Origin: Planctomycetia bacterium TMED53
GTDB taxonomy: Bacteria; Planctomycetota; UBA8108; UBA1146
Assembly: GCA_002167285.1 (NCBI GenBank)
Contig: NHDG01000103.1
Span: forward strand, 1 to 35,688
DNA: 35,688 bases
Direction of reading: 5' to 3'
Shown: in pieces, positions 3,361 through 20,547 of the stretch
How positions within the stretch are numbered: position 1 is the first letter of the stretch
How the letters are laid out: every line of letters starts with the position of its first letter
Position numbers and translations under genes: made by a program
The notes under the pieces: generated by a model
The model's input: the letters and a program-made list of their open reading frames with translations, nothing else
Told to the model about the DNA's origin: nothing
Databases searched by the model: none

Positions 3361-3390
3361 GCGCAAATTGCGCTTTACACTTTATAAAGT
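3361..3390. promoter_or_regulatory. Two adjacent short palindromes, possible operator
   Basis: GCGCAA-A-TTGCGC (3361-3373) is an inverted repeat with a 1-nt centre. Six bases later comes the perfect 12-nt palindrome ACTTTATAAAGT (3379-3390), which contains TATAAA. Both lie about 100 nt upstream of the preferred CNNM start, where an operator or core promoter would be expected. There is no direct evidence of a regulator. Confidence 0.35.
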
Positions 3391-3519
3391 ATGTGTCACC
3401 CTTTCCTCGGGTTCGCACCCCAGTGTGCGAATTCGAGCAAAGAGTGATCGGCTCAGCAGCAAGTTTTTTGCGGTCGATCAAAGGAAGAGGGAGAAACGGT
3501 CCTTGAATCGGGTCGTTCC

Positions 3520-3657: not shown

Positions 3658-5601
3658 ATGACACAGCAGAATGGTGACACGGGACGACAGACTCCGGAGC
3701 GAGTCTCCAGTACCTATGAGTTCGAACGTGTTTGGGACAACCTCGGTCAAGGCGGGAAAGTCATCTTGACCTTATGTACGGTCATTCTGGTCTACAGTTT
3801 TTTCTTCAATGGAAACTCATTCACAGAGCTTTCCGAAATTGATGTGGTCGGCGAGGAACGTGACAAGTTGGTCAAGTATCTCGAAGAAGAAAACATCGAT
3901 TTCCGATACACAGAAGAAGGGGTCGTTCGAATCCCGAGTAATAAAGTCAGTGAAGTCTACGGATTTCTCGACAGGTTTGTGAAGGTTGAGCAAGAGTCAA
4001 CAATAGCTGCAGCTGCAGCTACACCAGTGAATCTGCCGGATCTGACCAACTTCCGCCTTGGGAGTTTCAATAGATCTACCAATCGCCTTGAGAAAAAAAT
4101 CAAAGCGACAGAGGCAGAGATCGCACGCTACGATGGAATCGATTCCATCAGCATCGTTCCAAATAGACTTGCCACAGAGAGGCAGTCTTTCGACAGAGCG
4201 CCGAGCTTTAATCGGGTGACTGTTCAGGTCGAGCTGGAAGAAAACAGAAGGTCGATCGGGCTCGGTAGTGACATGATCAAGCTGATCAAGTCCCACGTCA
4301 GCGCTGCGATGGACATTCCTATCTCCAACATTCAAATGTTTGATTTGAGCGGACGTAGTTACGATTTCGTAGATAGAGGCTTTACGGCAGCGGACATTCG
4401 CCAAAAGGCCGGAATCGTTGAGAACCGGGTTGCGGATTTCATGGCCAACATTCTGCCGTTGGACAGCTTCCGTATTCAGGTAGATGTGGGCGCTCCAACA
4501 CTGCCAGCATCAGTCAACGGTGACGAAGTAATTCCTGAGCTTCGGCAAATCAATGATCGCATCATCCAGTTGACCCCCGTGACCGCTCCTCTTCCAGAGG
4601 ACGTTGTCACCATCACTGCTCTTCAAAATGCGCAGTCGAAGTTCGGCAACAGTAATTTGAATAACCCAGAGATCAGCAATGTCGCGGTGACGGTCTTTAT
4701 CGATCGTGAGCCCGCTCGCGCTGTCTTGGATAGGGAAGAATACGAGCGTCGCCTCAGCTTTGATCCGGTGATTTCAATCCCTCCCCAGGAAAGTTTTCAG
4801 TCGATCACACGCGATATCGCAATCCATTTGGAAGATCACTTGAGGGCTACTTTCCCTGAAGACAGTGTTACTGCCAGGCTTGTTCCGGTGAACCTCATCG
4901 GAGCCAATGGCCAGTTGGCAGATTCCTCTTGGGTCTCGCGGGAGTTCTTCGTTCCAGCGGCCGCAAATGGGAATAGTTCCCAGAGTTCGACCATCTTCTT
5001 CTTCGCCCTCGTGTCGTTTTTGTTTGTGGTGCTGATGTTCAGAGACGGGCCGAAGGACGCTGAAAATCGTTATTCCATCAAAGGTTTTCACGGAGGAATC
5101 GTCGAAAGATCGGTGCCCAGTTTCACTTCCGGCAACGGTTTTGCCACAGGAGTTACTCCTGGGGAAGATCCTGTCATCGTTCAGCAGATCGTACAGAAGT
5201 CCTTCGAGGAGCGAATCGAAGTACTTAGAGCCATCGTACGCAATGGGGCTGAAAACCTTCCAGGTAGCGGTGTTCTCGCGCTGATGATTTTTGATCTTTC
5301 TGAGAATCGTCAAGATTTCTTCACTGCTCTCACAGAAGAGGAATGCAGTGTCCTCTTCGAGTTGGTAGACGGAATCGTTGCTCCCATCGCAAAAGAGGAA
5401 ATCGAAGACGCTTTTGCAGCCTTCGAGTTGATCAACAAGGGTCTGGCCAATGGCAACGATATTCCTGTTTTGGTGACCACCGTTCCGACTCGTCCTCAAA
5501 TCGATCAAAAGGTGATCGAGGACATTCGTTCGACCAACCCTGCATTGGCTGACGTGATCTCGAAAAACCGTGAGGGTGCCGACCGGGAAAAGAGAAGTTG
5601 A
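3658..5601 (+). CDS. fliF: Flagellar MS-ring protein FliF (with extended, FliG-N-like tail)
   Basis: FliF forms the MS ring in the inner membrane, the base for the rotor and the housing of the export gate. It has a membrane helix at residues ~33-50 (VILTLCTVILVYSFFF), a periplasmic ring-building part including a divergent YscJ/FliF domain (RSTNRLEKKIKATEAEI through SNIQMFDLSGRSYDF), and a second membrane helix at ~444-462 (STIFFFALVSFLFVVLMF). At 647 aa it is longer than the usual 530-570. The extra length is in a cytoplasmic tail of about 185 residues. Part of that tail (~538-596, VLALMIFDLSENRQ... to EEIEDAFAAFELINKG) resembles the FliG N-terminal helical domain. No fliG follows; fliH begins within a few bases of the stop. 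The ATG has AGAGGAAC upstream. It is the first gene after the sigma-54 promoter. The FliF call is secure; the tail interpretation is inference. Confidence 0.9.
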   Translation: MTQQNGDTGRQTPERVSSTYEFERVWDNLGQGGKVILTLCTVILVYSFFFNGNSFTELSEIDVVGEERDKLVKYLEEENIDFRYTEEGVVRIPSNKVSEVYGFLDRFVKVEQESTIAAAAATPVNLPDLTNFRLGSFNRSTNRLEKKIKATEAEIARYDGIDSISIVPNRLATERQSFDRAPSFNRVTVQVELEENRRSIGLGSDMIKLIKSHVSAAMDIPISNIQMFDLSGRSYDFVDRGFTAADIRQKAGIVENRVADFMANILPLDSFRIQVDVGAPTLPASVNGDEVIPELRQINDRIIQLTPVTAPLPEDVVTITALQNAQSKFGNSNLNNPEISNVAVTVFIDREPARAVLDREEYERRLSFDPVISIPPQESFQSITRDIAIHLEDHLRATFPEDSVTARLVPVNLIGANGQLADSSWVSREFFVPAAANGNSSQSSTIFFFALVSFLFVVLMFRDGPKDAENRYSIKGFHGGIVERSVPSFTSGNGFATGVTPGEDPVIVQQIVQKSFEERIEVLRAIVRNGAENLPGSGVLALMIFDLSENRQDFFTALTEEECSVLFELVDGIVAPIAKEEIEDAFAAFELINKGLANGNDIPVLVTTVPTRPQIDQKVIEDIRSTNPALADVISKNREGADREKRS

Positions 5602-5603
5602 AG

Positions 5604-6443
5604 ATGAGTTCGAATCCCCAACCCGACTACGAATTGGAGGGCCACGTGGAGGAGCAGGATCTTCTCAACGCTCGGATGGAACTCGAAGCCCTTAGGGAGG
5701 CTTATGACGACCTGAAGAGGGGATTGATTCTCGAGGGCGAGCAGCAAAAGGCAAGATTGCAGGAAGCTCGTAAAGCCGAGAGCGAGCGCATCATTCAGCG
5801 GATGGAAGATGAGCGAAAAAAGTCCGAAGAAGCGCGTCAAAAAAATGAAGTCATTTGTCAGGAGCTTCGTCAGGCAAGTTCTGAGGAAGGGCGACGTCAG
5901 GGTTATGAGATCGGTTACGAGGAAGGACTGCAAAAAGGCCTCGAAGAAAGCCGACGTGTAGCGCGAGAAAACACTGAAAGAGCAGCGAAAGAAATCCTTG
6001 GAGATTCTTGCGACACATTACCCGCGACATTGGCGAAGTGTCTGGACGACTTCGATCGTGCATGGCGTGAAACGGTTTCAGAGATGCGCAGGGATACCGT
6101 TGCGCTATCCAGAGGAATCGCTGAGAGGATCATTCGTAGAGAGCTCGATCAGCTACCACAATTGGTTCTCGAAAACATCGAGGTTGCGGTACAGCGCATC
6201 TCAGATCGTCGCCGTTTGTGTATTGAAGTGCATCCTGCTGATTTGGAAGCAGTGGTGCAATTCCTTCCAGAGCTCGGTCGTCGCATTAGGGGTGCAGAAG
6301 CAGCCGAAGTTGTTGGGCAAGAGTTCATCCAAAGAGGTGGGTGTCGCATTCAGAGTGAAACTGGGCAAGTCGATCTTCGTATCGACACTCAGCTAGATCT
6401 CATCGAATCAGCGCTCATCAGAAACACACAGGTGTCAGGATGA
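5604..6443 (+). CDS. fliH: Flagellar export ATPase regulator FliH
   Basis: FliH is the stator-like partner of the export ATPase FliI; it binds FliI and docks it at the export gate. The first ~150 of 279 residues are highly charged coiled coil (EEGRRQGYEIGYEEGLQKGL shows the typical glycine-spaced helix). The C-terminal ~110 residues form the conserved FliH/YscL domain, with IEVHPADLEAV and the family's terminal signature GGCRIQSETGQVDLRIDTQL. The ORF track begins at a TTG (5598) that overlaps the fliF stop. I prefer the ATG at 5604, with GAGAAG about 8 nt upstream; either start changes only two residues. It is coupled to fliI through an ATGA overlap at its end. Confidence 0.93.
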   Translation: MSSNPQPDYELEGHVEEQDLLNARMELEALREAYDDLKRGLILEGEQQKARLQEARKAESERIIQRMEDERKKSEEARQKNEVICQELRQASSEEGRRQGYEIGYEEGLQKGLEESRRVARENTERAAKEILGDSCDTLPATLAKCLDDFDRAWRETVSEMRRDTVALSRGIAERIIRRELDQLPQLVLENIEVAVQRISDRRRLCIEVHPADLEAVVQFLPELGRRIRGAEAAEVVGQEFIQRGGCRIQSETGQVDLRIDTQLDLIESALIRNTQVSG

Positions 6444-7765
6444 ATTTCCTCTCCGCATTGGAAAACCTTGACCAGCAAGGACTCGTCAGGGTGCAAGGGA
6501 GAGTGGTCGCCGTCACGGGAGTTCTCGTCGAGGCTGAGGGGCTTTCTCTGCCCGTCGGCGCAGAATGTGAAATCGTGACTCGCGCCGGCATCCGATCCAA
6601 TGCGGAGGTGGTGGCTTTTTCTGGGGATAAAACTCTCCTACTTCCGGAATCCGGGATTGAAGGAATCGGGCCCCAGGACACTGTGATTCATGATGGGGGG
6701 GTCCCTAGTATCCCCGTATCAGCAGAGTTATTGGGGAGAGTCATCGATGCGAGGGGTAATCCCATCGATGGATTGGGTCCAATTTCAAATGGCACTCTTT
6801 TTCCAATACACAATGAGCCGATTCCAGCCCTGCGTCGTGGATTGATTAACCAACCGATGACGACAGGTGTAAGGGCTCTCGATGGGGTTTTAACTGCCGG
6901 GCGTGGTCAACGTCTGGGAATCTTCTCAGGGAGTGGTGTCGGAAAATCAACTTTGATGGGGATGATCGCGAGAAATACCGATCTACCAGTCAGAGTGATC
7001 GCCTTGATTGGTGAACGCGGCCGGGAAGTCAGAGAGTTTGTTGAACGAGATCTCGGTCCCGATGGTTTGAAAAACTCAGTTGTTGTTGTCGCGACCAGTG
7101 ATGAGGCTGCAGTACTTAGAATCAGAGCCGCGAAGGTGGCGACATCTATCGCTGAATGGTTCCGTGACAGCGGATCAGACGTACTGCTAATGGTGGATTC
7201 ATTGACTCGAATTGCACTGGCGCAGAGAGAAGTGGGATTGAGTGCAGGGGAACCTCCAACAACCCGCGGATACACTCCCAGCGTTTTTGCCATGTTACCG
7301 AAATTGCTCGAGCGAAGCGGGCCAGGGGAATCGGGAACCATCACTGCGTTCTACTCAGTTCTCGTTGAAGCGGATGATCAAAACGATCCGATTGGCGATG
7401 CGGTACGGGGAATCCTGGACGGTCAAATTTGGTTGTCCCGGGATCTAGCAAGCAAAGGTTGGTTTCCGCCGATAGAGCCATGCTCGAGTAAAAGCAGAAC
7501 AATGCCTGCAGTGGTTTCAGAGGATCACCTCAAGGCTGCTCGCAAACTGACTGAACTGATCGCGACTTACGCAGAGATCGAGGACATGATTCGCCTGGGG
7601 GCCTACAAAAAAGGTCAAGACATGGGTGCGGATACAGCTGCAGAAATGCGCCCAGCCATAGAATCTTTTTTGCGCCAGGAACCCAAAGAGTTCTCAGCAT
7701 ACGAAGAGACTTTGAGCAGGCTTCTTTCCATCGATGAGTCATCGAGGAGAGGAGATCGCCGATGA
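6440..7765 (+). CDS. fliI: Flagellum-specific export ATPase FliI
   Basis: FliI is the ATPase of the flagellar type III export apparatus and is related to the F1 beta subunit. At 441 aa it has normal family length. The P-loop GSGVGKST is at residues 164-171, the catalytic GERGREVREFVE segment at about 193, and the Walker B strand VLLMVDSLTR at 248-257. The family-specific GEPPTTRGYTPSVF follows. ATG at 6440 overlaps the fliH stop by 4 nt (ATGA), and the fliJ start overlaps its own stop in the same way. FliH-FliI-FliJ is the standard soluble export complex. The type III signatures, together with flanking fliH and fliJ, exclude an ATP synthase subunit or Rho. Confidence 0.97.
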   Translation: MNFLSALENLDQQGLVRVQGRVVAVTGVLVEAEGLSLPVGAECEIVTRAGIRSNAEVVAFSGDKTLLLPESGIEGIGPQDTVIHDGGVPSIPVSAELLGRVIDARGNPIDGLGPISNGTLFPIHNEPIPALRRGLINQPMTTGVRALDGVLTAGRGQRLGIFSGSGVGKSTLMGMIARNTDLPVRVIALIGERGREVREFVERDLGPDGLKNSVVVVATSDEAAVLRIRAAKVATSIAEWFRDSGSDVLLMVDSLTRIALAQREVGLSAGEPPTTRGYTPSVFAMLPKLLERSGPGESGTITAFYSVLVEADDQNDPIGDAVRGILDGQIWLSRDLASKGWFPPIEPCSSKSRTMPAVVSEDHLKAARKLTELIATYAEIEDMIRLGAYKKGQDMGADTAAEMRPAIESFLRQEPKEFSAYEETLSRLLSIDESSRRGDRR

Positions 7766-8220
7766 AGTCTTCAACTGAGCGATTGAAATCAGTCCTTAAA
7801 ATCAGAGAAGCAGAGCTCGAATCTGCAGTCGGTCTACTGTTGCTAAAAAAATCCGGACTCCACGAAGTCATGGAGCAGCTCAAAGAATTAAAAAAAGAGA
7901 GCGCCAGTATTTCGCAGGAGATGAAGTCAACAAACGGTGTCGATGAGTCTTTGGAGCCGATGGTTCATGGGCGATATTTGGCTCGGTTACGCCGGGAAGT
8001 GATGAGATTGAGCAAGGAAGTCACGGGTCTTCAGGAAACTGTCGATGTTGCGCGATCAAAGGTCAAATCCGCACATGGGCGACACGGTGCTGTGAAACTG
8101 CTCATCACGCAGCGGCAGGAGAAGGAACTTCTTCAAGAAATGCAGAAAGAACAGCGGCAGGTCGATGGTGATTCATGCCAGCGATTTATCGCGAATGAAA
8201 TCAGGGGTGAGGTCAGCTGA
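7762..8220 (+). CDS. fliJ: Flagellar export protein FliJ
   Basis: FliJ is a small coiled-coil protein that inserts in the FliI hexamer and links it to FlhA. The 152 residues are nearly all helical with charged heptads (EVMRLSKEVTGLQETVDVARSKV), which matches FliJ in length and character. FliJ is poorly conserved, so the call rests on size, coiled coil and position directly after fliI with an ATGA overlap. A gap of about 60 nt then separates it from fliO, one of the few spaces in the operon. Confidence 0.8.
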   Translation: MKSSTERLKSVLKIREAELESAVGLLLLKKSGLHEVMEQLKELKKESASISQEMKSTNGVDESLEPMVHGRYLARLRREVMRLSKEVTGLQETVDVARSKVKSAHGRHGAVKLLITQRQEKELLQEMQKEQRQVDGDSCQRFIANEIRGEVS

Positions 8221-8281: not shown

Positions 8282-8911
8282 ATGAAAAATCAGGGGCTTA
8301 GAGTTCTCCAGATTTGTGCAGTGGTTTTGTTGTTGGTGGTTTTGGGCGCCGGAGAAGCACACGCTCAGCTCTTTCCCATCGCTGATGGGGCAGCAGGGAG
8401 CACCGTCAATGGCGCAGTTTCTGGAGGTGCCGGAGCAGCTGGAAACAGCATCACCGGACCTGCGGGCTTGCAGTCTTTGCTGGAAGCGATCGGCGCGATT
8501 CTGATTTTGTCAGGTTGCGGCGTCGGAGTAGTTTTGCTCGCTAAAAAGTACTTCCCTGGTGCGATCCCTGGAACGGATGCACGAATGAAGGTGCTGACTC
8601 GAATTCCGCTGGGGAACCGCCAGAACGTAGTGACCTTCCGCATTGGAGAACGCGTCTTGGTTGTCGCTCAATCTCCAAATCGAGTCGATCTACTCTCCGA
8701 AATCACTGATCCGCGTGAAGTTCAGAATCTTAGCTATGGAAGTGATTTCTCCAGAGAAATCGAGAGAGTTCGTATCGATACACAAGATGACGAGTTCCCA
8801 GAGCAGTATGAGGTCGGTTCGACTGATACGAGTGTACGTGAAGAAATCAAATGGTTGCGTGAGCGCCTCGATGGCTACAACGAAAAGACGGAAGAAGAAG
8901 TTCACAGTTGA
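8282..8911 (+). CDS. fliO: Flagellar biosynthesis protein FliO
   Basis: FliO is a membrane protein that assists assembly of the FliP ring. The 209-aa product has an N-terminal signal-like segment (VLQICAVVLLLVVLGAGEAHA), a glycine- and alanine-rich stretch, a membrane helix at about 62-84 (LLEAIGAILILSGCGVGVVLLA), and then the family's cytoplasmic motif: RIPLGNRQNVVTFRIGERVL followed by VVAQSPNRVDLLSEI. The ATG at 8282 is preceded by GGGGAAAGGAACAGGAA. It lies immediately before fliP, which starts on its stop codon. Confidence 0.9.
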   Translation: MKNQGLRVLQICAVVLLLVVLGAGEAHAQLFPIADGAAGSTVNGAVSGGAGAAGNSITGPAGLQSLLEAIGAILILSGCGVGVVLLAKKYFPGAIPGTDARMKVLTRIPLGNRQNVVTFRIGERVLVVAQSPNRVDLLSEITDPREVQNLSYGSDFSREIERVRIDTQDDEFPEQYEVGSTDTSVREEIKWLRERLDGYNEKTEEEVHS

Positions 8912-9747
8912 TCAAAGTTAGAAACTTATTGGCGCTGGGAACATGCCTGGCAGCGATATTGGTCACCATGGGTTCAACCGTGGTTCATGCCTCAGAAGGA
9001 GGGGCTGATATCGTCAGTCGGGTCTTGGATGGAAACCCCGAGAATGTCGGGGTTTCCATCAAGTTGCTGCTGTTGACTACAGTGGTCGCAGTTGCACCAG
9101 CGCTATTGCTTCTGACGACAAGTTTTACCCGAATCATCGTTGTCCTCGGGTTTGTCCGCCGTGCAATCGGCACTCAGGATGCGCCTCCAAACCAGGTGAT
9201 ATTCGGCTTGTCCCTTCTTTTGACCTTGGTAGTGATGGGACCAACTTGGTCCGATATTTACAGCAATGCCATCCAGCCCTATTCAGAACAAACGATCTCC
9301 CCGGTGACCGGGGAAGTGATGGATGCGCAGCAAGCCAGCAAGTACGCGGAAACTCGCATACGCGAGTTCATGTACCCATTCGTGGATGTGGACGACCTTT
9401 TACTGATGGCTCGGGTTGGTGCACCACAGGTATATCGTGAACTTCACGATGACAATCAAGTTGAAGTCTCACGGCAGTTTGTGGAAGCCCTTCCACTGAC
9501 AGTTATCGTCCCCGCGTTTGTTCTGTCTGAGTTGAAGTTGGCTTTCCAAATGGGGGTGATGATCTTTATCCCCTTCCTGATCATCGATCTCGTCGTCAGT
9601 TCCATACTCGTGTCGATGGGCATGTTCATGTTGCCACCGATACTGGTCTCTCTGCCATTCAAGATTTTGGTGTTCGTGATGGCAGATGGCTGGTCACTGG
9701 TTGTAGAACAATTGCTCTACCATGGAACAGTGGGGACAGCGGGATGA
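8908..9747 (+). CDS. fliP: Flagellar export gate protein FliP
   Basis: FliP forms the pentameric core of the flagellar export gate with FliQ and FliR. The 279-aa product has a cleavable-looking signal peptide (LLALGTCLAAILVTMG...VHASEGG), as FliP proteins usually do, then the conserved TSFTRIIVVLGFVRRAIGTQ and PNQVIFGLSLLLTLVVMGP, and C-terminal helices ending in MFMLPPILVSLPFKILVFVM. The start is a TTG at 8908 that overlaps the fliO stop (TTGA), with AGAAGAAG upstream. It is favoured because it supplies the complete signal peptide. Next is fliQ with an ATGA overlap. Confidence 0.96.
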   Translation: MIKVRNLLALGTCLAAILVTMGSTVVHASEGGADIVSRVLDGNPENVGVSIKLLLLTTVVAVAPALLLLTTSFTRIIVVLGFVRRAIGTQDAPPNQVIFGLSLLLTLVVMGPTWSDIYSNAIQPYSEQTISPVTGEVMDAQQASKYAETRIREFMYPFVDVDDLLLMARVGAPQVYRELHDDNQVEVSRQFVEALPLTVIVPAFVLSELKLAFQMGVMIFIPFLIIDLVVSSILVSMGMFMLPPILVSLPFKILVFVMADGWSLVVEQLLYHGTVGTAG

Positions 9748-10022
9748 TCGATTTCGATCGGGTTTTAGATGTTCTTCAAGCGGCATTGGTGCTGGCACTA
9801 CAGCTTTCAATACCGGTATTGGTGGCTGTGATTGTCGTGGGGATTGCGACCAATCTCATTCAGGCAATTTTTCAATTGCAGGATCAAAGCTTGTCGCTGG
9901 TTCCCAGGATGATTGCGGTAGCTCTGGTATTGGCGTTGATGGCCCCGACGATGCTCGAATGGATCGTGACTTTCACCCGGGACAGTTTTCAGGCTTCAGC
10001 TGATTTTTTGTCAGGTGGTTGA
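9744..10022 (+). CDS. fliQ: Flagellar export gate protein FliQ
   Basis: FliQ is a small two-helix membrane subunit of the export gate. At 92 aa it is the usual family size. Two long hydrophobic helices (ALVLALQLSIPVLVAVIVVG and SLVPRMIAVALVLALMAPTML) flank the conserved loop NLIQAIFQLQDQSLSLVPR. The ATG overlaps the fliP stop by 4 nt. Only 3 nt separate it from fliR. The FliP-FliQ-FliR order is standard. Confidence 0.95.
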   Translation: MIDFDRVLDVLQAALVLALQLSIPVLVAVIVVGIATNLIQAIFQLQDQSLSLVPRMIAVALVLALMAPTMLEWIVTFTRDSFQASADFLSGG

Positions 10023-10025
10023 TCG

Positions 10026-10856
10026 ATGAATCATCTGATCGAGATCACTACTGCATCCTGGTCTACATGGGCACTCGTCAGCGCCAGATTTTTTGGCGCC
10101 ATGCTGATTTTACCGTTCTTTTCAGAGCAGTCGATTCCGCTTCGTTTTCGCTGGGGATTCGCATTTCTTTTGGCATTGGTAGTGGCTCCTCTCGATCTAT
10201 CTGGAAACGACGCTGTCGTCGCTTTTTCCGACCCGCTTTCGGCAATGATCAGTCTCGGCGGAGAGTTGGCTCTCGGTTGGATATTAGGCGCAACCATCGC
10301 TGTCGTGATTTGGGGAGCGAGATTGGGTGCTGCTTGGTTGGGGGCTTTTACCGCAGATTCTGCATTTGCCACAGGTGAGCAGAATCAATCGGAGGAATCT
10401 CCGTTGACCACGATCATGACTCTCTTGGCTGCGCTCGTATTTTTAGCGTTGGAGGGCCACCGCTTAGTGATGCTGATGCTAATGGATTCATTTCAAAAGA
10501 TCCCTGCAGGCATCTTTTCCTCCGTGCTATCCGGAACCGAGGCGCAAAGCTCAAACGTGAAAACCGATGGGATTGCTGGGTTCGTTGAGATGGCAGGGCA
10601 ACAAACGTGGGTCATCGGACTCGAAATCGCCCTGCCTGCGATTTTTGCATTGCTTCTGATTACCTTGGTTCTCGGAGTCCTAAGTCGTGTCGTTCCCGAA
10701 ATCGATGTGTTCTTCACCGGATTCGCCTTACGGACTTGCGCCGGGTTTGCCCTGATTTTTGTCAGCTTACCGTTTATCTCTGAGATCTTTGCATTTGTCG
10801 TTACTCAAAGTTTGAACCAATCCAGCGCAGTTCTTGGAATCCTTGCGGGGGGTTAA
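10026..10856 (+). CDS. fliR: Flagellar export gate protein FliR
   Basis: FliR is the single-copy subunit that completes the FliP5-FliQ4-FliR1 export gate in the inner membrane. The 276-aa product is strongly hydrophobic with about six membrane helices. ARFFGAMLILPFFSEQSIPLRFRWGFAFLL near the N terminus is the typical FliR opening (the full region is conserved). LSRVVPEIDVFFTGFALR near the C terminus corresponds to the family's conserved 'R..PQ.nvf..g.plk' region. It starts 4 nt after fliQ and is followed 2 nt later by flhB. Confidence 0.94.
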   Translation: MNHLIEITTASWSTWALVSARFFGAMLILPFFSEQSIPLRFRWGFAFLLALVVAPLDLSGNDAVVAFSDPLSAMISLGGELALGWILGATIAVVIWGARLGAAWLGAFTADSAFATGEQNQSEESPLTTIMTLLAALVFLALEGHRLVMLMLMDSFQKIPAGIFSSVLSGTEAQSSNVKTDGIAGFVEMAGQQTWVIGLEIALPAIFALLLITLVLGVLSRVVPEIDVFFTGFALRTCAGFALIFVSLPFISEIFAFVVTQSLNQSSAVLGILAGG

Positions 10857-10858: not shown

Positions 10859-11659
10859 ATGTCGGCAAATGAAAATCGAATTCACAAACCGACACCTCGG
10901 CATCTGCGCCAGGCCGCAGAGGCGGGGATCTTCCCATTTAGCCAAGATTTGGCAGTGGCCAGCACCATCGTTGTGGGTGGCCTGATATTGGCGTGGTACT
11001 CGGACACGTTGTTGTTGGAGATGATCGCTGCCTTCAAGAGCTTCTATTCTGTTGGATTGAAAGATCCAGCAACAGGAAATCAGCTCTTGCTCGAAGTTCC
11101 ATGGTTGATCGCGAAATTGGTAGCTCCAGTTTGTTTGACGATCTTCTTTACGGCAGTTGCGATTTCATGGCTTCAATCACCAAAGGTGCTTCGCCAAGAA
11201 TGGATCGCCACTTCTGTTTCGAATTGGAAACCAGGTCAAAAACTGTTCGATCTGTTCTCACCGATGACCCCTGGAAGGCTGTTGTTTCAACTCTGCCGAA
11301 TCGGAGTCATTTCAGGATTGGCGCTTCTCGGTTATCAGAAAATAGTCGAGCAAATCAGCGCTTCAGCGATTTCCCCAACTAGAGTTCCATTTGGGGATTA
11401 TTTCGTTCCTGTCTCGACGACTCTGGTCCAGATCTCTTTTGCACTGATCCTGTTTGCTGTTGTCGACAAAGTATATCGACACTGGCAATGGAGGAACTCT
11501 ATGCAAATGACCCCAGAAGAGTTGAGACGTGAACAAAGAGAAGTTCAGGGAGATCCACGAATTCGTAAGCGTCGAAAATCAGCGCATCTCCAGTTGATAA
11601 AAAATACCTCCGCTACACCTCCAGCAGCCAAGGAAATCCTCGATGGGAGTTCCCAATGA
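10859..11659 (+). CDS. flhB: Flagellar export switch protein FlhB, lacking the C-terminal autocleavage domain
   Basis: FlhB surrounds the closed export gate and normally switches substrate class through autocleavage of its cytoplasmic domain at NPTH. The N terminus fits the family: RIHKPTPRHLRQAAEAGIFP, then four membrane segments. After the last one comes the expected linker MTPEELRREQREVQGDPRIR. The protein then ends after about 30 more residues at 266 aa, against a usual 350-390. NPTH and the rest of the cytoplasmic domain are absent. The flhA start overlaps its stop (ATGA), leaving no space for the missing part, and I saw no continuation of the domain in another frame. It is therefore either a natural short FlhB with the C domain encoded elsewhere, or a switchless form. 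Confidence 0.9.
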   Translation: MSANENRIHKPTPRHLRQAAEAGIFPFSQDLAVASTIVVGGLILAWYSDTLLLEMIAAFKSFYSVGLKDPATGNQLLLEVPWLIAKLVAPVCLTIFFTAVAISWLQSPKVLRQEWIATSVSNWKPGQKLFDLFSPMTPGRLLFQLCRIGVISGLALLGYQKIVEQISASAISPTRVPFGDYFVPVSTTLVQISFALILFAVVDKVYRHWQWRNSMQMTPEELRREQREVQGDPRIRKRRKSAHLQLIKNTSATPPAAKEILDGSSQ

Positions 11660-13857
11660 ATCTGAATTCACCAAGCAAGCTGGCCAACTCGGATGAATGG
11701 CGTGGTTCCATTCATCGAAATCGAGACCTCGCGCTAATTTTGGCTCTCGGTGGAATTTTGGTGGCGATCCTCGTGCCTTTGCCTGGCCCGGTGATGGACG
11801 CACTCTTGGGAGTCAACATTGCGGTTTCGGTGTTGATTCTTCTGACGGTGGTTTATCTGCGCGGGCCTCTCGAATTTGCCGCATTTCCTTCGATGCTTTT
11901 GATCGCGACTCTCTACAGACTTGCGCTCAATATCGCAACGACACGTTTGATCCTCAGTAATGCAGGAACAGAAGGGCCCCTCGCTGCCGGAAAAGTGGTG
12001 AACTATTTCGGCGACTTCGTTTCAGGCTCAAATGTTGTAGTTGGTTTCATCATCTTTTCAGTTTTGGTGTTGATTCAGTTCATGGTCGTGACCAAAGGGG
12101 CTTCCCGCATCGCAGAGGTGGCTGCTAGATTCTCACTCGATCGGATGCCCGGCGCTCAGATGGCTATCGATGCAGATTTGACTGCTGGGAATATCACTTC
12201 TTCGGAAGCACGCTTGGCAAGGGAGGATTTGGCCCTCCAGGCAGATTTCTATGGAGCGATGGATGGTGCGAGCAAGTTCGTTCGCGGGGATGCCATCGCT
12301 GCTGTTTTGATCACTTCCATCAATATCTTTTTCGGTATCGGTCTCGGCGTCATTTCATATGGAATGGACATTTCTGAAGCGGTTGCGGTCTTTGCCACAT
12401 TAACGATCGGTGACGGAATCGCTACTCAGCTACCGGCACTCTTCATCAGCGTGGCTGCTGCATTGATGGTGACCCGCGCTTCATCCCGTGGCCAAGTGGG
12501 GCACGCCCTCGTTGGACAAGTGTTTGCAAATCCACGTGCTTTGTTCATCACCGCGATGATTCTGTTTCTTCTAGGATTCGTAGGGTTGTCACCCCTCGCT
12601 TTGGGAACATTAGCTGTGGGTTTGCTGGCCGTCGCATTTCTCAAAGGCTCAACCAAACCTGAGGTGCAGGTGATTCCTGAGGTCACCAATGTGGGTGATC
12701 TGGAATCGACCTCTCCCTTCAATGATAATGATTCGACAAATCTAGCAACGATATCCGCAGATTCTGACATCTATCGTTTCCCCTTCGGTATCGAACTCGG
12801 TACGGGTCTTCATAGTTTGATCCAGCCCGGAGAGGGTACGACTTTGGCGGTTGCTGTTGAAGATTTGCGGCGTCGCTTCCGTGAGCGATTGGGAATCGAT
12901 CTTCCGGCGGTCAAAGTGAGTATCAATCCGCAGTTGGATCGCAGAGATTACCGGATCTATCTGCGCCAGATCGTTGCCGCCAAGGGGTCGATTTTGAGTG
13001 ATATGAACTTCCTCAGCGAGGGGCAGCGCTCACTTCGAGGTGTCGAGGGAGTCGATGGTCGTCATCCGGTGACTGGGCAGGCCGGGAAATGGGTCGCAGA
13101 AGAGGAAGCCTTGATGCGGACAGCCTTAGGGTTCGTCTGCCATAGGGGGCAAGAGATTTTACTTCTGCACCTTGAGACGGTAGCTCTCGCTCATGCTCAG
13201 GAATTGTTGACCCGGTCTGAAGTTCAAGCCCTCCTCGATCATGTCCATGAAGGGGCCCGTCCTCTGGTGGCGGAGCTGATCCCGGCGGTCTACTCCCTGG
13301 CGGAGGTTCAGAGGATTCTTCAAGGTTTGGTCTCAGAGCAGGTCTCTCTAAGAGACCTGGAAAAGGTACTTGAGGCTCTGGGAGAGATCGCCATCGAGTG
13401 GCCTGAAGCCAGTCGTAGGCCTGTTGAGGCCGTGGTCGAAAAGGTCAGAAACCGCATTTCTCGGGCAATTTGCGCCACTTTGGCCACCGAGGAGGGGGTT
13501 GTCCACGCCTTGACCCTGGACCCTGAAGTCGAGCAGCGAATCTACGAGGCTCGTCTGAATGGGGTAGCGGGCTCGGTTCCGGAATTGGCACCCCATGATC
13601 ACCGCTCAATCATCCAGTCGATCAATAATTCGCTTTGTGAATTGGAATCAGAAGGTCTCCAGGGAGTCATCTTGTGCTCCCCTGAGCTGAGGCTTTCCAT
13701 CAAGAAGTTATTGGAGAAGGAAGTGCCAACGGCAGCTGTCCTCTCCTACAATGAAATCGCACACGGGTTCACCGTGAAATCCGGGGGGATTGTGAGTACC
13801 GACTCCTGCTCAGCAGAAGTTCCACTCACAGGGGGAAGGGAAACGTCCTTTGAATGA
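11656..13857 (+). CDS. flhA: Flagellar export gate protein FlhA
   Basis: FlhA forms the nonameric export ring that receives substrate-chaperone complexes and uses the proton motive force. The 733-aa product is slightly longer than the usual ~690. The N-terminal half has about eight membrane helices with the conserved FHIPEP-type stretch FPSMLLIATLYRLALNIATT, and the FlhA cytoplasmic loop (GASRIAEVAARFSLDRMPGA, MAIDADLTAGNI). The C-terminal half (~360-733) is the soluble domain, with HPVTGQAGKWV and ELIPAVYSLAEVQRILQGLV. ATG overlaps the flhB stop, and the end overlaps the flhF start. Confidence 0.97.
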   Translation: MNLNSPSKLANSDEWRGSIHRNRDLALILALGGILVAILVPLPGPVMDALLGVNIAVSVLILLTVVYLRGPLEFAAFPSMLLIATLYRLALNIATTRLILSNAGTEGPLAAGKVVNYFGDFVSGSNVVVGFIIFSVLVLIQFMVVTKGASRIAEVAARFSLDRMPGAQMAIDADLTAGNITSSEARLAREDLALQADFYGAMDGASKFVRGDAIAAVLITSINIFFGIGLGVISYGMDISEAVAVFATLTIGDGIATQLPALFISVAAALMVTRASSRGQVGHALVGQVFANPRALFITAMILFLLGFVGLSPLALGTLAVGLLAVAFLKGSTKPEVQVIPEVTNVGDLESTSPFNDNDSTNLATISADSDIYRFPFGIELGTGLHSLIQPGEGTTLAVAVEDLRRRFRERLGIDLPAVKVSINPQLDRRDYRIYLRQIVAAKGSILSDMNFLSEGQRSLRGVEGVDGRHPVTGQAGKWVAEEEALMRTALGFVCHRGQEILLLHLETVALAHAQELLTRSEVQALLDHVHEGARPLVAELIPAVYSLAEVQRILQGLVSEQVSLRDLEKVLEALGEIAIEWPEASRRPVEAVVEKVRNRISRAICATLATEEGVVHALTLDPEVEQRIYEARLNGVAGSVPELAPHDHRSIIQSINNSLCELESEGLQGVILCSPELRLSIKKLLEKEVPTAAVLSYNEIAHGFTVKSGGIVSTDSCSAEVPLTGGRETSFE

Positions 13858-15400
13858 CTTCAAAGATATGGTCGATGCGGAGCACACCCGTGTCGTTGCA
13901 CCAGATTACGCAACTGCAGTTCGCATTCTTCAGGAAAGATTTGGTAGTGATTGGACGGTGGTTCACTCACGCAAAGTAAGACGTCCTGGGATATTGGGAT
14001 GGCTTGGACTTTCCGATGTGGTCGTGATCGTTAGAACACAAAAGTCCAGCAATGACATCCTTACTGCTCCAATTCAATTGGAGACTGCAATTGAAGAAAA
14101 GATTCCAGTACTTGCCGGAGAGTTTTCCGGTGAGATGGAAGAAACTGAATCGACCGTTTCCAATGATGAAGCGGTCGATGCTCCATACTCTGCCCCTGCA
14201 TCAGTGCAGGAGATTTCTGCGAGCTTAGGAGATGGTAATTTCAGTGCGGATTCTCAAGCCGAGAACTCAAATCCTGTAGCCCCCCACATTACTTCTTCTA
14301 CAGGAGATACCGATTTGTCGATGTCTGGCTTTAGTGGTCGCAATGAAATCTCCGATTTGAATACGACATCGGAAGCGATTTCCGTGGTTCCTGAATCAAT
14401 GAGTGAACTCTCCGCAAGATTGGAAAGTTCGCGACAGCGCATCGCTGAGGAGCTGAGGGCATTCAACTCTAGTTCTCCATTCCACAGAACTCCTGATTCT
14501 TGGCAGGCTGAGGCGAGCTCGGAATTCAAAGAGTTCCCGAAGGCGGGATTAGGTGAGACTCTGGAAGAGGTTTCTGAGGTTCAGGATGTCTTCGAAGATC
14601 CTGTTTTACTCGGGAAGGTGACTTCTATCCTCGAGAAATGTGGCTTCTCCTCCGGGGCAAAGAGCGAAATCATGTCTGCTGTAAGCGGCGTTGGAGTCCC
14701 CAAGGATCTCGACGAGGTTGGGTTGGATTCTTTGATCGAGAATCGAATCGGATCTTGTGTCATGAGTCGAGTTCCCCAAGCCAGTGGGATCTCTTTGACG
14801 AATACTGTTGGCAAGACCAAGTTTGTTGCACTGGTGGGTCCAACCGGGGTGGGTAAAACCACAACCCTTGCAAAACTGGCGGCCTACTTCCACGTCGTCG
14901 AGAAAAAGAAGGTCGGCTTGCTGACCCTCGATTCATATCGACTGGGAGCCATCGAGCAGTTGAGAAGATTCGCAGATATCATCGGTTTGAATTTCAAGAC
15001 GGTGAATGAGCCTGAGCAAATCGCCGAAGAGATCGCCTCATTCAATAATTTTGACATCGTCTTCATCGATACCGCGGGACGCAGCCAAAAAGACGTTGAT
15101 CGCCTTAAAGAAGTCAGGGATTGCCTCGCAAATGTGAATGATCTTGAAGTTCACCTTTGCCTATCGCTGGGAGCCGCTCCTGAAGCGTTGCTGGCAACAG
15201 CAGACGCATTCCGCATCGTTGGCTACGATCGAGTGATCTTTACCAAGAAGGACGAATCGTACTCAAAAGGCTTCTTGTGGGATCTCTTTGGCATCATGCA
15301 GGTTCCCGTTTCCTACGTTACCTGTGGCCAAGAAGTACCCGAAGATTTTGATACAGCCAGTAGGGACAAAATCAGGGATATGATCCTCGGAGTGGAATGA
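13850..15400 (+). CDS. flhF: Flagellar placement GTPase FlhF
   Basis: FlhF is an SRP-type GTPase that determines where a flagellum is built, usually at a pole. Of 516 residues, the first ~235 are a variable, acidic, low-complexity B domain, starting with YATAVRILQERFGSDWTVVHSRKV as in other FlhF proteins. An NG domain follows. Its P-loop GPTGVGKTT begins at residue 330, then LLTLDSYRLGAIEQLRRFA, DTAGRSQKD and the guanine-specificity motif TKKDE (more often TKLDE). The start is a TTG at 13850 overlapping the flhA stop, with GGAAGGG about 10 nt upstream. The ATG at 13868 is an alternative that would lose six residues. It overlaps flhG by ATGA, and the FlhF-FlhG pair normally acts together. Confidence 0.95.
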   Translation: MNDFKDMVDAEHTRVVAPDYATAVRILQERFGSDWTVVHSRKVRRPGILGWLGLSDVVVIVRTQKSSNDILTAPIQLETAIEEKIPVLAGEFSGEMEETESTVSNDEAVDAPYSAPASVQEISASLGDGNFSADSQAENSNPVAPHITSSTGDTDLSMSGFSGRNEISDLNTTSEAISVVPESMSELSARLESSRQRIAEELRAFNSSSPFHRTPDSWQAEASSEFKEFPKAGLGETLEEVSEVQDVFEDPVLLGKVTSILEKCGFSSGAKSEIMSAVSGVGVPKDLDEVGLDSLIENRIGSCVMSRVPQASGISLTNTVGKTKFVALVGPTGVGKTTTLAKLAAYFHVVEKKKVGLLTLDSYRLGAIEQLRRFADIIGLNFKTVNEPEQIAEEIASFNNFDIVFIDTAGRSQKDVDRLKEVRDCLANVNDLEVHLCLSLGAAPEALLATADAFRIVGYDRVIFTKKDESYSKGFLWDLFGIMQVPVSYVTCGQEVPEDFDTASRDKIRDMILGVE

Positions 15401-16284
15401 GGGATCAGGCCTACAAGTTACGAGCACTGATGGCTGAGACCACGGCGCCCTTTGAAGGTAATGGGCGAGTGATTGCGGTGACCAGCGGTAAAGGTGGAGT
15501 CGGCAAGACCAATGTCTCGGTCGGCTTGGCGCTATCCGCGGCACGTTCAGGAGTTAGCACGGTCTTGATCGATGGTGATCTTGGACTCGCCAACATTGAT
15601 GTACTCCTCGACCTTCACTCCGGTAAAAACCTGGGGCACTTGGTCGAGGGAGAGGCGAAACTCCACGAAATTTTGATCTCTGGCCCAGAGGGAATTCGTG
15701 TTCTCCCTGGTGCGAGTGGACTGACTCAGGTTGCAGATTTGAGCCATAGCCGTCAGCAGCGTCTCTTCGATGCGATGGGGGAGCTGGTTCGTGAGCACGA
15801 CTTGGTCATCATCGATACCGGCGCTGGCATTTCCCGATCGGTCATCGATTTGTGCCAGGCGGCTGGAGAAGTTTTGGTGGTGACGACGCCTGAGCCGACT
15901 GCAGTCGTCGATGCTTATGCAATGCTCAAAGTGTTTTCATGTGAAACTCGAACTCCCAAGTGTTGGCTGACAGTGAATCAGGCTCAGTCCAGGGGGGAAG
16001 CACAGCAGGTCTCCAGTAGGATCAAAGCTCTCGCCAAAAAGTTTCTTTCTCTGGATCTTGAAGATGGGGGAGCTGTCTTGTTTGACCCAAGAGTCTCCGC
16101 CTCAGTCCGGAAACGGCAACACTTCTCAAGGGCTTATCCTTCCTCACCGGCTTCCCGAAGTTTGCGCGAATTAGCCGAACGTCTGGGCATACAGAAACAA
16201 AGACGATCGCGTGGAGGATTCCTGAACAGGCTGAAAGAAGTCTTTGTCGGGGATATGGGAGGTGCTCGAGAGCGTTCTTTCTAA
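15397..16284 (+). CDS. flhG: Flagellar number regulator FlhG (MinD-like ATPase)
   Basis: FlhG (FleN, YlxH) is a MinD-type ATPase that limits flagellar number and stimulates the GTPase of FlhF. The N terminus MRDQAYKLRALM carries the DQAxxLR activator motif known to act on FlhF. The deviant Walker A SGKGGVGKT follows at residues 30-38, then LIDGDLGLANIDVLLDL and the Walker B strand LVIIDTGAGIS. The C-terminal part has basic clusters (QKQRRSRGGFLNRLKEVF) that could serve as the membrane-targeting helix. At 295 aa it has normal length. The ATG overlaps the flhF stop by 4 nt. Confidence 0.95.
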   Translation: MRDQAYKLRALMAETTAPFEGNGRVIAVTSGKGGVGKTNVSVGLALSAARSGVSTVLIDGDLGLANIDVLLDLHSGKNLGHLVEGEAKLHEILISGPEGIRVLPGASGLTQVADLSHSRQQRLFDAMGELVREHDLVIIDTGAGISRSVIDLCQAAGEVLVVTTPEPTAVVDAYAMLKVFSCETRTPKCWLTVNQAQSRGEAQQVSSRIKALAKKFLSLDLEDGGAVLFDPRVSASVRKRQHFSRAYPSSPASRSLRELAERLGIQKQRRSRGGFLNRLKEVFVGDMGGARERSF

Positions 16285-16433: not shown

Positions 16434-17279
16434 TTGGCCCAGGCCGAAAAAAGTGATATCGAGAAAGATTTCCCGGGCACTCATTCTCTGGTCGGCAAGA
16501 CCCGACTCAGTGAGGACCCCAAACTTGAACGTACTTGGATCGATTACAAAGAAACTCAAAGCCACCAGTTAAAAAATGAACTGTTGGAGAGATACCTTCC
16601 CATCGTTCGTTATGCCGCGGATAGATTGCATCGCAAACTTCCACAGCAGGTCGATGTAGACGATCTCTACGGCGCAGGAATCTTCGGTTTGATGGGCGCA
16701 ATCGAGGGCTATGACCTCGAGCGTGGAGTCAAGTTTGAAACTTACTGCAACACCAGAGTGAACGGCGCCATCATCGATTCCCTGCGGGCTCTGGACTGGG
16801 TACCTCGTATGGTACGCAGTACCGCCAATCGACTGAGCAAAGCTTGGAAAGAGCTTGAGCTTGAGGCGGGACGTGAACCGACGGACCTGGAGATGGCACA
16901 CCACCTCGGGGTCACAGAAGAAGAATACGAGCAGCTTCAGAGAGAAGCCTCCGCAGCCTCCATCGTTTCGCTGACCGATCATGTTTCCGATGAAACCGAT
17001 TCTCGTTCCCTTCGCAAGATCGACATGCTCAATGATGCCAAGACTCCTGCTCCTGAATCGAATCTTCAGATGGAAACGATTATGGAGACTCTCAACGAGA
17101 AACTGGATGAACGCGAGCGGCAGATCTTCATTCGCTACTACTGGAATGGCGAAACCATGAAGGAGATCGGTGAACGACTGGAGCTCTCAGAATCGAGGGT
17201 GTGCCAGTTGCACTCCAGGACTGTGCTCAAGTTGCGCCAACTCTTTGGTCACAGAGCGGAAGATTTTTCTATCGATTGA
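16434..17279 (+). CDS. fliA: RNA polymerase sigma factor FliA/WhiG (sigma-28)
   Basis: Sigma-28 family factor that directs RNA polymerase to late flagellar genes such as flagellin. The 281-aa product has region 2 (DVDDLYGAGIFGLMGAIEGY, then GVKFETYCNTRVNGAIIDSL and LDWVPRMVRS, the FliA/WhiG signature), region 3 (EAGREPTDLEMAHHLGVTEE), and the region 4 helix-turn-helix near the C terminus (ETMKEIGERLELSESRVCQL). The N-terminal extension of about 50 residues is a little longer than usual. The start is TTG at 16434 with AGGAG six bases upstream; no nearby ATG has a comparable site. It follows flhG after a 149-nt gap and closes the flagellar run. FlgM, its usual anti-sigma factor, is not in the window. 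Confidence 0.94.
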   Translation: MAQAEKSDIEKDFPGTHSLVGKTRLSEDPKLERTWIDYKETQSHQLKNELLERYLPIVRYAADRLHRKLPQQVDVDDLYGAGIFGLMGAIEGYDLERGVKFETYCNTRVNGAIIDSLRALDWVPRMVRSTANRLSKAWKELELEAGREPTDLEMAHHLGVTEEEYEQLQREASAASIVSLTDHVSDETDSRSLRKIDMLNDAKTPAPESNLQMETIMETLNEKLDERERQIFIRYYWNGETMKEIGERLELSESRVCQLHSRTVLKLRQLFGHRAEDFSID

Positions 17280-17302: not shown

Positions 17303-17344
17303 ATTCAGTAACCCTCCAAGTGCCCTCATAGGGGAGTACTGAAT
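17303..17344 (+). promoter_or_regulatory. Inverted repeat covering the next gene's ribosome site and start codon
   Basis: ATTCAGTA (17303-17310) and TACTGAAT (17337-17344) are perfect 8-nt arms; inner CCCT and AGGG segments can extend the pairing. The ribosome site GGGGAG and the first two bases of the ATG at 17343 lie within it. It could limit translation of the membrane protein. There is no T run, so it does not look like an intrinsic terminator for fliA. Confidence 0.45.
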
Positions 17345-19196
17345 GATCGATCCAGAGAATCCGCCAGACGAAGAAACAGAAGAATCTGAAGATGATGAGA
17401 TTCCCGGCATTCGGGGGAAGATCATCTCAGGTTTGGCTTGGATCCTATTTGTTCCAATCTATCTTCTGGTGAACCTTCTGGACAAATTCGGCTTTTATCT
17501 GGCGATTTTTCTGATCGCTCTTTCCTTTGGGCAATACCTTCCCAAAGCCATCGACCTGATCACCTTTCCCCATGAGTTGCGATACGGTGAAGCTGTCGTT
17601 GCTGATCAAGTACGTCGGGTTTCTGAAGAGCCAGGCCTATATCCGCCGATTGGTGCCGAGCCGTGGCTGTTTGACCAATATGCTCCCGGATATCCAGCAC
17701 TCGTGAGTCTATTTCAACCCCTCTTCGATTCTCCATATGAAGGAGGACGTTGGATCTCGCTCATCTTCACCTTGCTAGCGGCCATCTTCCTAGGGCTATG
17801 GGTTAAATCCAGCGGAGAGTCTTTTGGTAAAGTTTTAGATTCAGAAGAACAAAATGATCCCAAACTACTGGCCAGAACAGCCTCCCTGCTCGCCGTAGCA
17901 GGGGTATTTTCGCTCCTAGAGTTTATCCAATTTGGATTTTTGATGCGGATCGATGCGATGGCTCTGGGGCTGACATTGGCAGGGGCGTGGCTGACGCTGG
18001 GGGTATCCCCCCGTTGGAGGTGGTTGGGGGCGCTTTGTTTCTTCTGTGCTGTTTACACACGTCAAACGATGATGGCCATCCTCATTTTGACATATGCAGA
18101 GCTGTATTTGCGCGAAGGGAAAATAGCGACCCGCTGGGGCTTGAGTCTCTTGGCTGCGGGTTTGCTTTTCTTTGTCGGTTTGAATTGGGCTTCAAGCGGT
18201 GGGTTCTACCAACACGCCGTGGCTTCAAATTTGTTTCCGATGAATTGGGAATACGGAGTCAAAAAGTATTTCGGCTCCTTCCCACAGTGGAAAACTCCCG
18301 TGTTCTTGGCACTGTTCATGGCCTTGTTTATGCACTTTTGGAAGGTACCAAGATACCGGGCATTGGCATGGACACTTCTTGGAGCGGTCGCCACTCTCAC
18401 AATCCCCGTTTTTTGGAGTTCTTTAACGAGTGGGAAGATCGATAACAACGATCTTGGATTTATGCTTGGCGCGCACGGTGTGTTGATTTTTACCAGTCTA
18501 GCCTTGGTGATACTACGACCCTCCAGAGAAGGAGCCTTCGACGGTTGGAGATCACTGACGATCCTAGGGTTTACCTTGTTGATTGCCCGAGACGGATCAG
18601 ATTTAAACTACCTCTTTGAGCCTACTTTACTGATGTTATTGATACCGTTGCAAAGCGTCGTGCGTCATGGGGCGAATCATAGCTGGGGTTCCGCAACGAT
18701 CTTGCTCTTCGTTGTTTTACAAATTGTCCTCGGGGTTTATCGAAGTGGGACGATTACCGAGTTTAACCCGGAACGTCTCGAAGAGATGTCGGAGCGAACT
18801 CGAGTCATCAAAAAGCTGGAGTCTTTTGAAGGTCCGATTCTCAGTGAAGAACCTTGGGTGTTAGTGGAGTCGGGGCGTCCTCTGGTAATTGAACCCTACA
18901 CTGCTCGGCAGATGTATGAATCAGATGTCTGGACTGCGAATGATCTGCGCAAGGCTATCGAGGGAGGCAGATATCCCGCAGTGATTCGATCGAAGCAGAG
19001 AGTGTACGCCGGGATCGACCCGAATACGGGCAGGCCCTACTTCGGCCCTTGGACTTTCAATAGTGTGCGCTCATTTCCAAGAAAAATTCAGGACATCCTT
19101 GATCGGCATTACGTTGCCCTTGAGGGATCTGAGTTCATCGAGAAAATCACGGACTACTATTTGGAGGGTCGGCAGATCTGGGTTCCTAGAAAATAG
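17343..19196 (+). CDS. Polytopic membrane protein, probable GT-C type glycosyltransferase
   Basis: The 617-aa protein begins with an acidic cytoplasmic tail (NPPDEETEESEDDE) and has about ten or more membrane helices. The first helices are followed by an extracytoplasmic loop with HELRYGEAVVADQVRRV (~77-94) and PWLFDQYAPGYPALVSLF. This resembles the first loop of ArnT/PMT-like (family 39) GT-C glycosyltransferases, where acidic residues are catalytic. The C-terminal ~150 residues are a soluble domain without a recognised motif (EGPILSEEPWVLVESGRPLV). Such enzymes transfer sugars from polyprenyl-phosphate donors. The gene follows fliA by 63 nt, so a role in modifying a surface or flagellar component is possible but unproven. 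No specific substrate can be assigned. Confidence 0.65.
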   Translation: MIDPENPPDEETEESEDDEIPGIRGKIISGLAWILFVPIYLLVNLLDKFGFYLAIFLIALSFGQYLPKAIDLITFPHELRYGEAVVADQVRRVSEEPGLYPPIGAEPWLFDQYAPGYPALVSLFQPLFDSPYEGGRWISLIFTLLAAIFLGLWVKSSGESFGKVLDSEEQNDPKLLARTASLLAVAGVFSLLEFIQFGFLMRIDAMALGLTLAGAWLTLGVSPRWRWLGALCFFCAVYTRQTMMAILILTYAELYLREGKIATRWGLSLLAAGLLFFVGLNWASSGGFYQHAVASNLFPMNWEYGVKKYFGSFPQWKTPVFLALFMALFMHFWKVPRYRALAWTLLGAVATLTIPVFWSSLTSGKIDNNDLGFMLGAHGVLIFTSLALVILRPSREGAFDGWRSLTILGFTLLIARDGSDLNYLFEPTLLMLLIPLQSVVRHGANHSWGSATILLFVVLQIVLGVYRSGTITEFNPERLEEMSERTRVIKKLESFEGPILSEEPWVLVESGRPLVIEPYTARQMYESDVWTANDLRKAIEGGRYPAVIRSKQRVYAGIDPNTGRPYFGPWTFNSVRSFPRKIQDILDRHYVALEGSEFIEKITDYYLEGRQIWVPRK

Positions 19197-19400: not shown

Positions 19401-20453
19401 TTATCCTTGGATGTGAACTGTGGGGGTCGCAGAGCTGGCTCTGACCTCTCCGATGATGGCATGTTCTGCGACACCCGCAGCCGCCAAATCATTGATCAAG
19501 GCATCGACCCGCTCTTCAGCGACCGCGAGAAGCAATCCGCCAGAGGTTTCCGAATCGAGACATAAGGAAACCAGTGATTCCTCGATCCCATCTTCAACTT
19601 GCAGTTTCTCACCCAGATGTTGACGATTTCGAACTGAGCCGCCGGAGCAGAATCCAGCCTTTGCCAAGTCAGCGACGCCGGGAAGTAGCGGTAAAGCGTT
19701 TGCCAAGATCAACAGATCGACGCCACTTGCCAGAGCCATTTCGGAACCGTGGCCTACGAGACCAAAGCCGGTGACATCGGTCGCGGATTGAACTTGGTGA
19801 TTCAATGCGATGCTTGCACCAGCTGCATTCAGAGTTGCCATCGAATCGGAGGCTGCGGCAACGATCTCCGCATCGACCTCCGACTTATTGAGGGCGGTGC
19901 TCACCGTTCCCGTTCCGAGGGCTTTGGTGAGAAGAAGAACATCTCCTTCTTTAGCGCCACCATTGGTCAGCATGTGATCCGGATTGATGGTGCCAGTGAC
20001 GGCGAGGCCGTACTTGATCTCTGAGTCACGAACACTGTGCCCACCGAGGAGGGCGCATTGAGCCTCCTGCATCTTTTCCGCACCTCCAGCGAGAATCTCA
20101 CCGAGGATTGAAACAGGTAGGTCTTGGGGGAAGCCGACGATGTTGAGCGCGCTGAGAGGAGTTCCACCCATGGCGAAGATATCGGAGAGGCTGTTCGCCG
20201 CTGCGATACGGCCAAACTCCCGAGGGTCATCAACGATCGGTGGAAAGAAATCCACGGTTTGTACGATGGCATGATCGGAGCCTGGGATGCGGATCACTCC
20301 GGCATCATCGAGGGTATCAGGGCCGTGAAGGACCTCATCACGGGTGGGCATCGATAGGTTGGAGAGGACCTCGACCAGGTCCCCGGGTGAGAGCTTGGCA
20401 GCTCAGCCCGCACAGGATGCGTAGTTGGTCAGGCGAATCGGTTCGTCAGACAT
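19401..20453 (-). CDS. selD: Selenide, water dikinase SelD (selenoprotein, Sec17)
   Basis: SelD makes selenophosphate from selenide and ATP, the selenium donor for SelA. The ORF track begins at an internal Met (20351) because an in-frame TGA lies upstream. Reading from the ATG at 20453 (AGAGGAGAG upstream) gives MSDEPIRLTNYASCAG-U-AAKLSPGDL with TGA at 20405-20403. This is exactly the SelD active-site loop, where Cys or Sec is catalytic and the following Lys is essential (G-C/U-xx-K). The full product is 350 aa, matching the family's ~347. Downstream are DFFPPIVDDPREFGRIAAANSLSD, FAMGGTPLSALNIV, SDVTGFGLVGH-like TDVTGFGLVGHGSEM and ETSGGLLLAV. A bSECIS-like hairpin follows the TGA. It sits between selA and selC. 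Confidence 0.96.
20364..20384 (-). promoter_or_regulatory. bSECIS-like hairpin for SelD Sec17
   Basis: On the minus strand, beginning 19 nt after the TGA, GGGGACCT pairs with AGGTCCTC (8 pairs, one G-U) around the 5-nt loop GGTCG. A short stem with G residues in the apical loop, placed within about 15-40 nt of the UGA, is the known bacterial SECIS layout recognised by SelB. It lies in the coding frame, as in other bacterial selenoprotein mRNAs. Confidence 0.8.
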
Positions 20454-20547
20454 GGCGCTCTCCTCTCTGGAACTGGAAAGATCCCCTGCAGTCTCGGTGA
20501 GGTCAAGGGCAAGTGAGCACTGAAGAGCTGGTTGTCGCGTTTTCGCT

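Follow-up and report, generated by a model that had tools for sequence, protein, structure and literature searches.

A short FlhB that ends before its autocleavage site is conserved in planctomycetes with a flagellar-type export operon

The switch domain of FlhB is regarded as central to flagellar export, and a flhB gene that stops short of it raises the question of what its export gate can still do. Such a gene lies in the window, the whole stretch of 35,688 nucleotides analysed here, on contig C8 of a planctomycete MAG (2.98 Mb, 125 contigs, 83% complete).

10859-11659, + strand: flhB, 266 aa, transmembrane domain and start of the cytoplasmic helix, without NPTH and FlhB_CC

The protein carries the linker EVQGDPRIRKRRK and stops, at 266 aa, behind the basic linker GDPRIRKRRK; no NPTH occurs in the frame. 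The flhB TGA (11657-11659) overlaps the flhA start (ATGA, 11656), which leaves no room for a C domain. The Pfam profile Bac_export_2 matched FlhB over positions 2-243 of 335 only (E 7e-36). The planctomycete protein aligned with residues 4-255 of the Vibrio FlhB structure (E 2e-37) and with residues 5-257 of the 383 of 36hu FlhB, and with nothing beyond in either. The cleavage site of the Salmonella FlhB is N269 (PMC13344023). Measured against the FlhB family (PF01312/TIGR00328), the four-helix transmembrane domain is present and the NPTH autocleavage site and FlhB_CC domain are missing; the score of 100 bits is below the TIGR00328 equivalog cut-off of 349 bits. The four-helix transmembrane domain of FlhB wraps the FliPQR gate. 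The fold was predicted with low confidence (pLDDT 62), so its match to FlhB 6s3l (E 0.003) adds little to the sequence match. A profile of the FlhB C domain (A1), run with filters off, drew a blank in every frame of the window (best E 4.6), and no match elsewhere in the source genome was obtained at E<=10. An earlier note on this DNA had described an FlhB that stops at 266 aa after an EGDP-like linker, without NPTH and the cytoplasmic switch domain and with flhA starting on its stop codon. The frame, the Pfam extent and the structure alignments confirm the first point, the blank C-domain searches in window and genome the second, and the ATGA overlap at 11656 the third.

To place the truncation, FlhB was compared across the class, where all 29 genomes examined gave an FlhB-family match. 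FlhB is short in 21 of them, the source included: all seven genomes of the genus (G000-G006), six from two other genera of the same family (G008, G009, G011, G013-G015) and eight of families f5 and f6 (G020-G023, G025-G028), with G023 cut by a contig end. In the six further genomes of the genus, FlhB has the same end point and a similar tail. A full-length FlhB with NPTH was found in G010, G012, G018 and G024, and one with a degenerate motif in G007 (SPGR), G017 and G019 (both NPSE); G016 has a stand-alone C domain only. The suggestion that FlhB is naturally switchless was thus right, and it holds across the clade, whose named members include UBA1146 and BS30m-G49. An initial contig scan with FlhB as query had returned no relatives. 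The title of one record, L108, reads "Bacillota bacterium MAG 7" and is probably wrong; by its operon and its FlhA the record belongs to this planctomycete clade.

On the FlhA tree, the short FlhB requires three changes (bootstrap range 3-3), in family f1, in f5 with f6, and in the Planctomycetales contigs L118 and L135. If the strongly supported branches are taken by themselves, a single change is enough, so that the count of three is likely, not proven. The genome of L118 (G098) yielded no flagellin, C domain or FliG_C, and L135 is not clean evidence, since a full FlhB is present in its genome (G099) as well. The short FlhB apparently evolved more than once. In both L118 (7934-9837) and L135 (1-1584), a gene resembling sulfotransferases in sequence stands on the opposite strand between flhB and flhA. 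The FlhA studied here falls among those of flagellated members of its own planctomycete family, and FlhA models give it a higher score than SctV models do; the gate phylogeny outside flagellar sequences that marks a non-flagellar T3SS (injectisome) was not found.

The short flhB belongs to an operon whose order in its own clade is fliF-fliH-fliI-fliJ-fliO-fliP-fliQ-fliR-flhB-flhA-flhF-flhG-fliA followed by a glycosyltransferase-like gene, flanked by a divergent CNNM gene before and selD after.

3374-3398, no strand assigned: conserved motif TTTACACTTTATAAA.. TATGTGTCAC, from an alignment of five genus members
3658-5601, + strand: fliF (MS ring), divergent, 647 aa, assigned by position, orthologues and fold match to FliF
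5598-6443, + strand: fliH (Pfam FliH, E 1e-18)
6440-7765, + strand: fliI, export ATPase, P-loop SGSGVGKS intact
7762-8220, + strand: fliJ (Pfam FliJ, E 6e-9)
8282-8911, + strand: fliO (Pfam FliO, E 6e-10)
8908-9747, + strand: fliP (Pfam FliP, E 1e-67)
9744-10022, + strand: fliQ (Pfam Bac_export_3, E 1e-18)
10026-10856, + strand: fliR (Pfam Bac_export_1, E 3e-42)
11656-13857, + strand: flhA, with a conserved transmembrane core and an altered docking dimple in the C domain
13850-15400, + strand: flhF, SRP-type GTPase (Pfam SRP54, E 4e-37; operon position)
15397-16284, + strand: flhG, ParA/MinD-type ATPase
16434-17279, + strand: fliA-type sigma factor (Pfam sigma-70 regions 2, 3 and 4)
17343-19196, + strand: 617-aa membrane protein resembling PMT_2/GT-C glycosyltransferases, conserved at the operon end

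The FliOPQR-FlhA gate, the FliHIJ ATPase complex and the MS ring FliF of a flagellar type III secretion system are therefore present. Pfam does not recognise the divergent FliF of this genus; orthologues at the same position match YscJ_FliF, and its predicted fold, of low overall confidence, matches FliF rings. The gene order is the same in three genera and all frames are open. Between close members of the genus, dN/dS is 0.13-0.15 for flhB, lower for most other operon genes and at most 0.01 for fliA; the operon is under purifying selection. The 617-aa gene closes the operon in each of the three genera that make up the clade, and its link to the exporter is putative.

To determine whether the partners of the switch are retained, the class genomes were searched for FliK, flagellin/FlgL, rod and hook proteins, FliM/N and FliG_C, with positive controls. 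FliK, flagellin/FlgL and the rod and hook proteins were undetected in every class genome with a short or degenerate FlhB, while FliK, flagellin and rod/hook proteins were all present in the four flagellated relatives with NPTH; G016 gave a weak FliK match and one rod-type match. FliM/N was absent throughout the own clade (13 genomes, 83-95% complete), and so was FliG_C, except for marginal matches in G002 and G006. Missing contigs cannot explain these absences, because 13 genomes share them. In the source genome (G000), no C ring (FliG, FliM, FliN) was detected, nor the rod/hook, the filament or the FliK ruler. FliM/N is still kept by f6 and G025, and FliG also by G021 and G025; G017 and G019 have a FliG without its middle part. 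The earlier note had pointed out that known flagella require this domain for switching from hook to filament. The truncation poses no riddle of flagellar assembly: with the hook, rod, filament and FliK genes undetected, there is no flagellum left to switch. In genomes that have neither flagellin nor FliK, three loci (L048, L051 and L190) encode a full-length FlhB whose NPTH is degenerate (SPGR or NPSE), and FliG lacks its middle part in L051 and L190; these loci look like intermediate stages.

The docking site of FlhA was then compared with that of Salmonella, whose dimple with D456, F459 and T490 binds chaperone-filament substrate complexes (PMC10965912). The dimple is changed here (D456H, F459T and T490L, Salmonella numbering). 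T490 is kept in none of the 20 distinct short-FlhB genomes (one of them, L110, was placed by clade, its contig starting at flhA), whereas it is kept in 60 of the 71 other loci and in all three rows with a degenerate NPTH. Eleven other loci, among them L142, whose genome has flagellin, have also lost it, which makes the loss an association rather than a rule. The FlhA C domain is 24-32% identical to that of Salmonella here versus 34-40% in the other loci, a divergence that may reflect loss rather than change of cargo. The transmembrane residues R94, R147, R154, D158 and D208 are kept (D208 is E in f6). A short FlhB together with a lost T490 may be usable as a marker for recognising repurposed export gates in genomes.

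The anatomy of the locus, the truncation shared between genomes, the failure to detect the partner genes, the recurrence of the short state on the FlhA tree and the purifying selection are observations. From them we infer, with a probability of roughly 0.6, that this is a flagellum-derived switchless export apparatus that was kept after loss of the flagellum and whose cargo is probably not flagellar. FliF, the FliHIJ ATPase complex and the FliOPQR-FlhB-FlhA gate would have remained. FlhB would have shed the cleavable switch domain at its C-terminus, on which rod and hook substrates also dock, since no hook, filament or FliK ruler was left. The gate would then behave like the Salmonella FlhB lacking 270-383, with no early-substrate mode and no FliK-triggered switch, and by this analogy it may have a constitutive single export mode. 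It presumably still exports proteins. Their nature is probably not flagellar, because the FlhA site for chaperoned filament substrates is also changed; with both flagellar docking sites lost, a new cargo or, less likely, none is expected. Without a rod, the exported proteins would get no further than the periplasm, unless they have a different conduit. FlhF and FlhG would place the complex at a pole, and such polar placement is probable. To a more specific reading we give somewhat less than even odds: a dedicated secretion system that consists only of MS ring, ATPase complex and gate, is fixed in one mode and carries non-flagellar cargo, with the docking site of FlhA remodelled, and that arose in three or more planctomycete lineages in parallel.

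The nearest comparison comes from a 2026 study in which Salmonella mutants were selected for secretion of a late substrate without rod or hook; they included an FlhB stop at residue 258, and a deletion of 270-383 gave the same result (PMC13344023). The truncated Salmonella FlhB allowed FliK-independent late secretion and no export of hook protein (PMC13344023), since the domain that it lacks holds the early docking site. In the planctomycete FlhB the end falls at about this position, before NPTH, and in neither protein are rod/hook export and FliK-driven switching possible. The differences are that the Salmonella truncation is a laboratory mutant of a flagellated species, whereas that of the planctomycetes is natural, conserved and accompanied by undetected rod, hook and filament genes and a changed FlhA docking site. 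To work, the truncated Salmonella FlhB needs both overexpression and the absence of Flk, and its assembly seems to be poor (PMC13344023), so that the analogy supports and does not prove activity here. No natural FlhB without the switch domain was found in the open-access literature searched, and the planctomycete protein is the natural counterpart of a mutant so far known only from the laboratory. Its loss of the domain agrees with the Salmonella result that domain removal is itself the switch (PMC13344023). The cause is ordinary (no flagellum, no switch) and the consequence, a conserved switchless export gate, is unusual: the apparently repeated loss of the switch domain, along with all that it serves, in a gate under selection separates the transport core from the switch in nature. 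Marine planctomycetes with a short FlhB are systems for asking what a flagellar gate does without a flagellum.

The main rival holds that the gate no longer secretes and that the proteins form a polar membrane complex with another task, for instance in support of type IV pili, nanotube-like structures or cell polarity. There is a precedent in the non-flagellated Lysobacter enzymogenes, where twitching needs flhA, flhB, fliI and fliR, not fliP and fliQ (PMC7277350), and both the loss or change of the two known substrate-docking sites and the retention of FlhF/FlhG would fit. We nevertheless consider this role unlikely, at somewhat better than one chance in four. Purifying selection has conserved every gate subunit, fliP and fliQ among them, along with the ATPase and the transmembrane residues of FlhA, as expected for a working transporter, and the Lysobacter apparatus itself still exported heterologous flagellin (PMC7277350). 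Lysobacter and the planctomycetes both keep flagellar export genes without flagellin, a feature of co-opted flagellar type III secretion systems of non-flagellated bacteria, and those of Lysobacter serve another use (PMC7277350); for the planctomycetes, purifying selection is indirect evidence of a role without flagella. The planctomycete FlhB has lost the switch domain, and the Lysobacter system exported the test flagellin. The basal bodies of Buchnera likewise combine an export apparatus and MS ring with absence of flagellin and motor; they keep rod genes and often a partial hook (PMC8109811), whereas no rod or hook protein was detected here. The Myxococcales-type T3SS is also a conserved locus without parts usually thought necessary; it is an early non-flagellar branch (PMC3459982), unlike the FlhA described above.

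That the operon is instead a relic of the lost flagellum on its way to deletion, with FlhB truncated by decay, is improbable. Many flagellar genes have indeed disappeared, and intermediate stages are seen in relatives (a degenerate NPTH in G007, G017 and G019, partial FliG in G017 and G019). Against decay speak the low dN/dS of flhB and the still lower values of most other operon genes, the open frames, the single gene order of three genera and the FlhB end point shared by several lineages.

Still less probable is a split FlhB, with the C domain encoded elsewhere and joining in trans, as the earlier note had also envisaged. Two relatives, G012 and G016, do carry this same domain as a separate gene, and in this they differ from the short-FlhB class genomes. 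Searches with Pfam and a 14-sequence profile, up to E 10, found no stand-alone C domain in the genus, and in the other class genomes with a short FlhB the best match had only E 0.24; none of these genomes thus yielded a separate C-domain protein, and FliK, the switching partner, was undetected as well. A split could hold only if the domain had become unrecognisable in all of them, and is otherwise effectively refuted. The separate C domain of G016 lies at L050 8100-8600, after a FliK-like frame; the FlhB membrane part was not found in this genome, which is incomplete.

A frameshift or assembly error that removed the end of a normal FlhB can be rejected almost with certainty, even for a fragmented and incomplete MAG, since no frame holds C-domain sequence, the six other genus genomes agree in end point and tail, 19 other class genomes share the end point (the 20th being the contig-cut G023), which rules out a sequencing error, and the close relatives are all short, so that the grounds named earlier for dropping the switchless reading, a base correction or full-length close relatives, fail.

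Some minor features of the locus were also recorded. At its C-terminus FliF carries an additional helical region, possibly similar to the FliG N domain. FliG_N matched FliF of three relatives weakly (Pfam E 0.006-0.009) and hhalign gave a probability of at most 18%; a FliF-FliG_N fusion is possible. PADLOC found nothing. The FliA promoter pattern, used to look for cargo genes, matched once across 14 genomes; the two flagellated genomes among them had no match, so the consensus seems inapplicable here. The AT-rich motif TTTACACTTTATAAA between the divergent CNNM gene and fliF is strongly conserved in the genus, and the motif at 3374-3398 is a possible regulatory site. At 19404-21954 of the window, an AIR-synthase-like gene (probably selD) and selA adjoin the operon, and the organism may therefore use selenocysteine.
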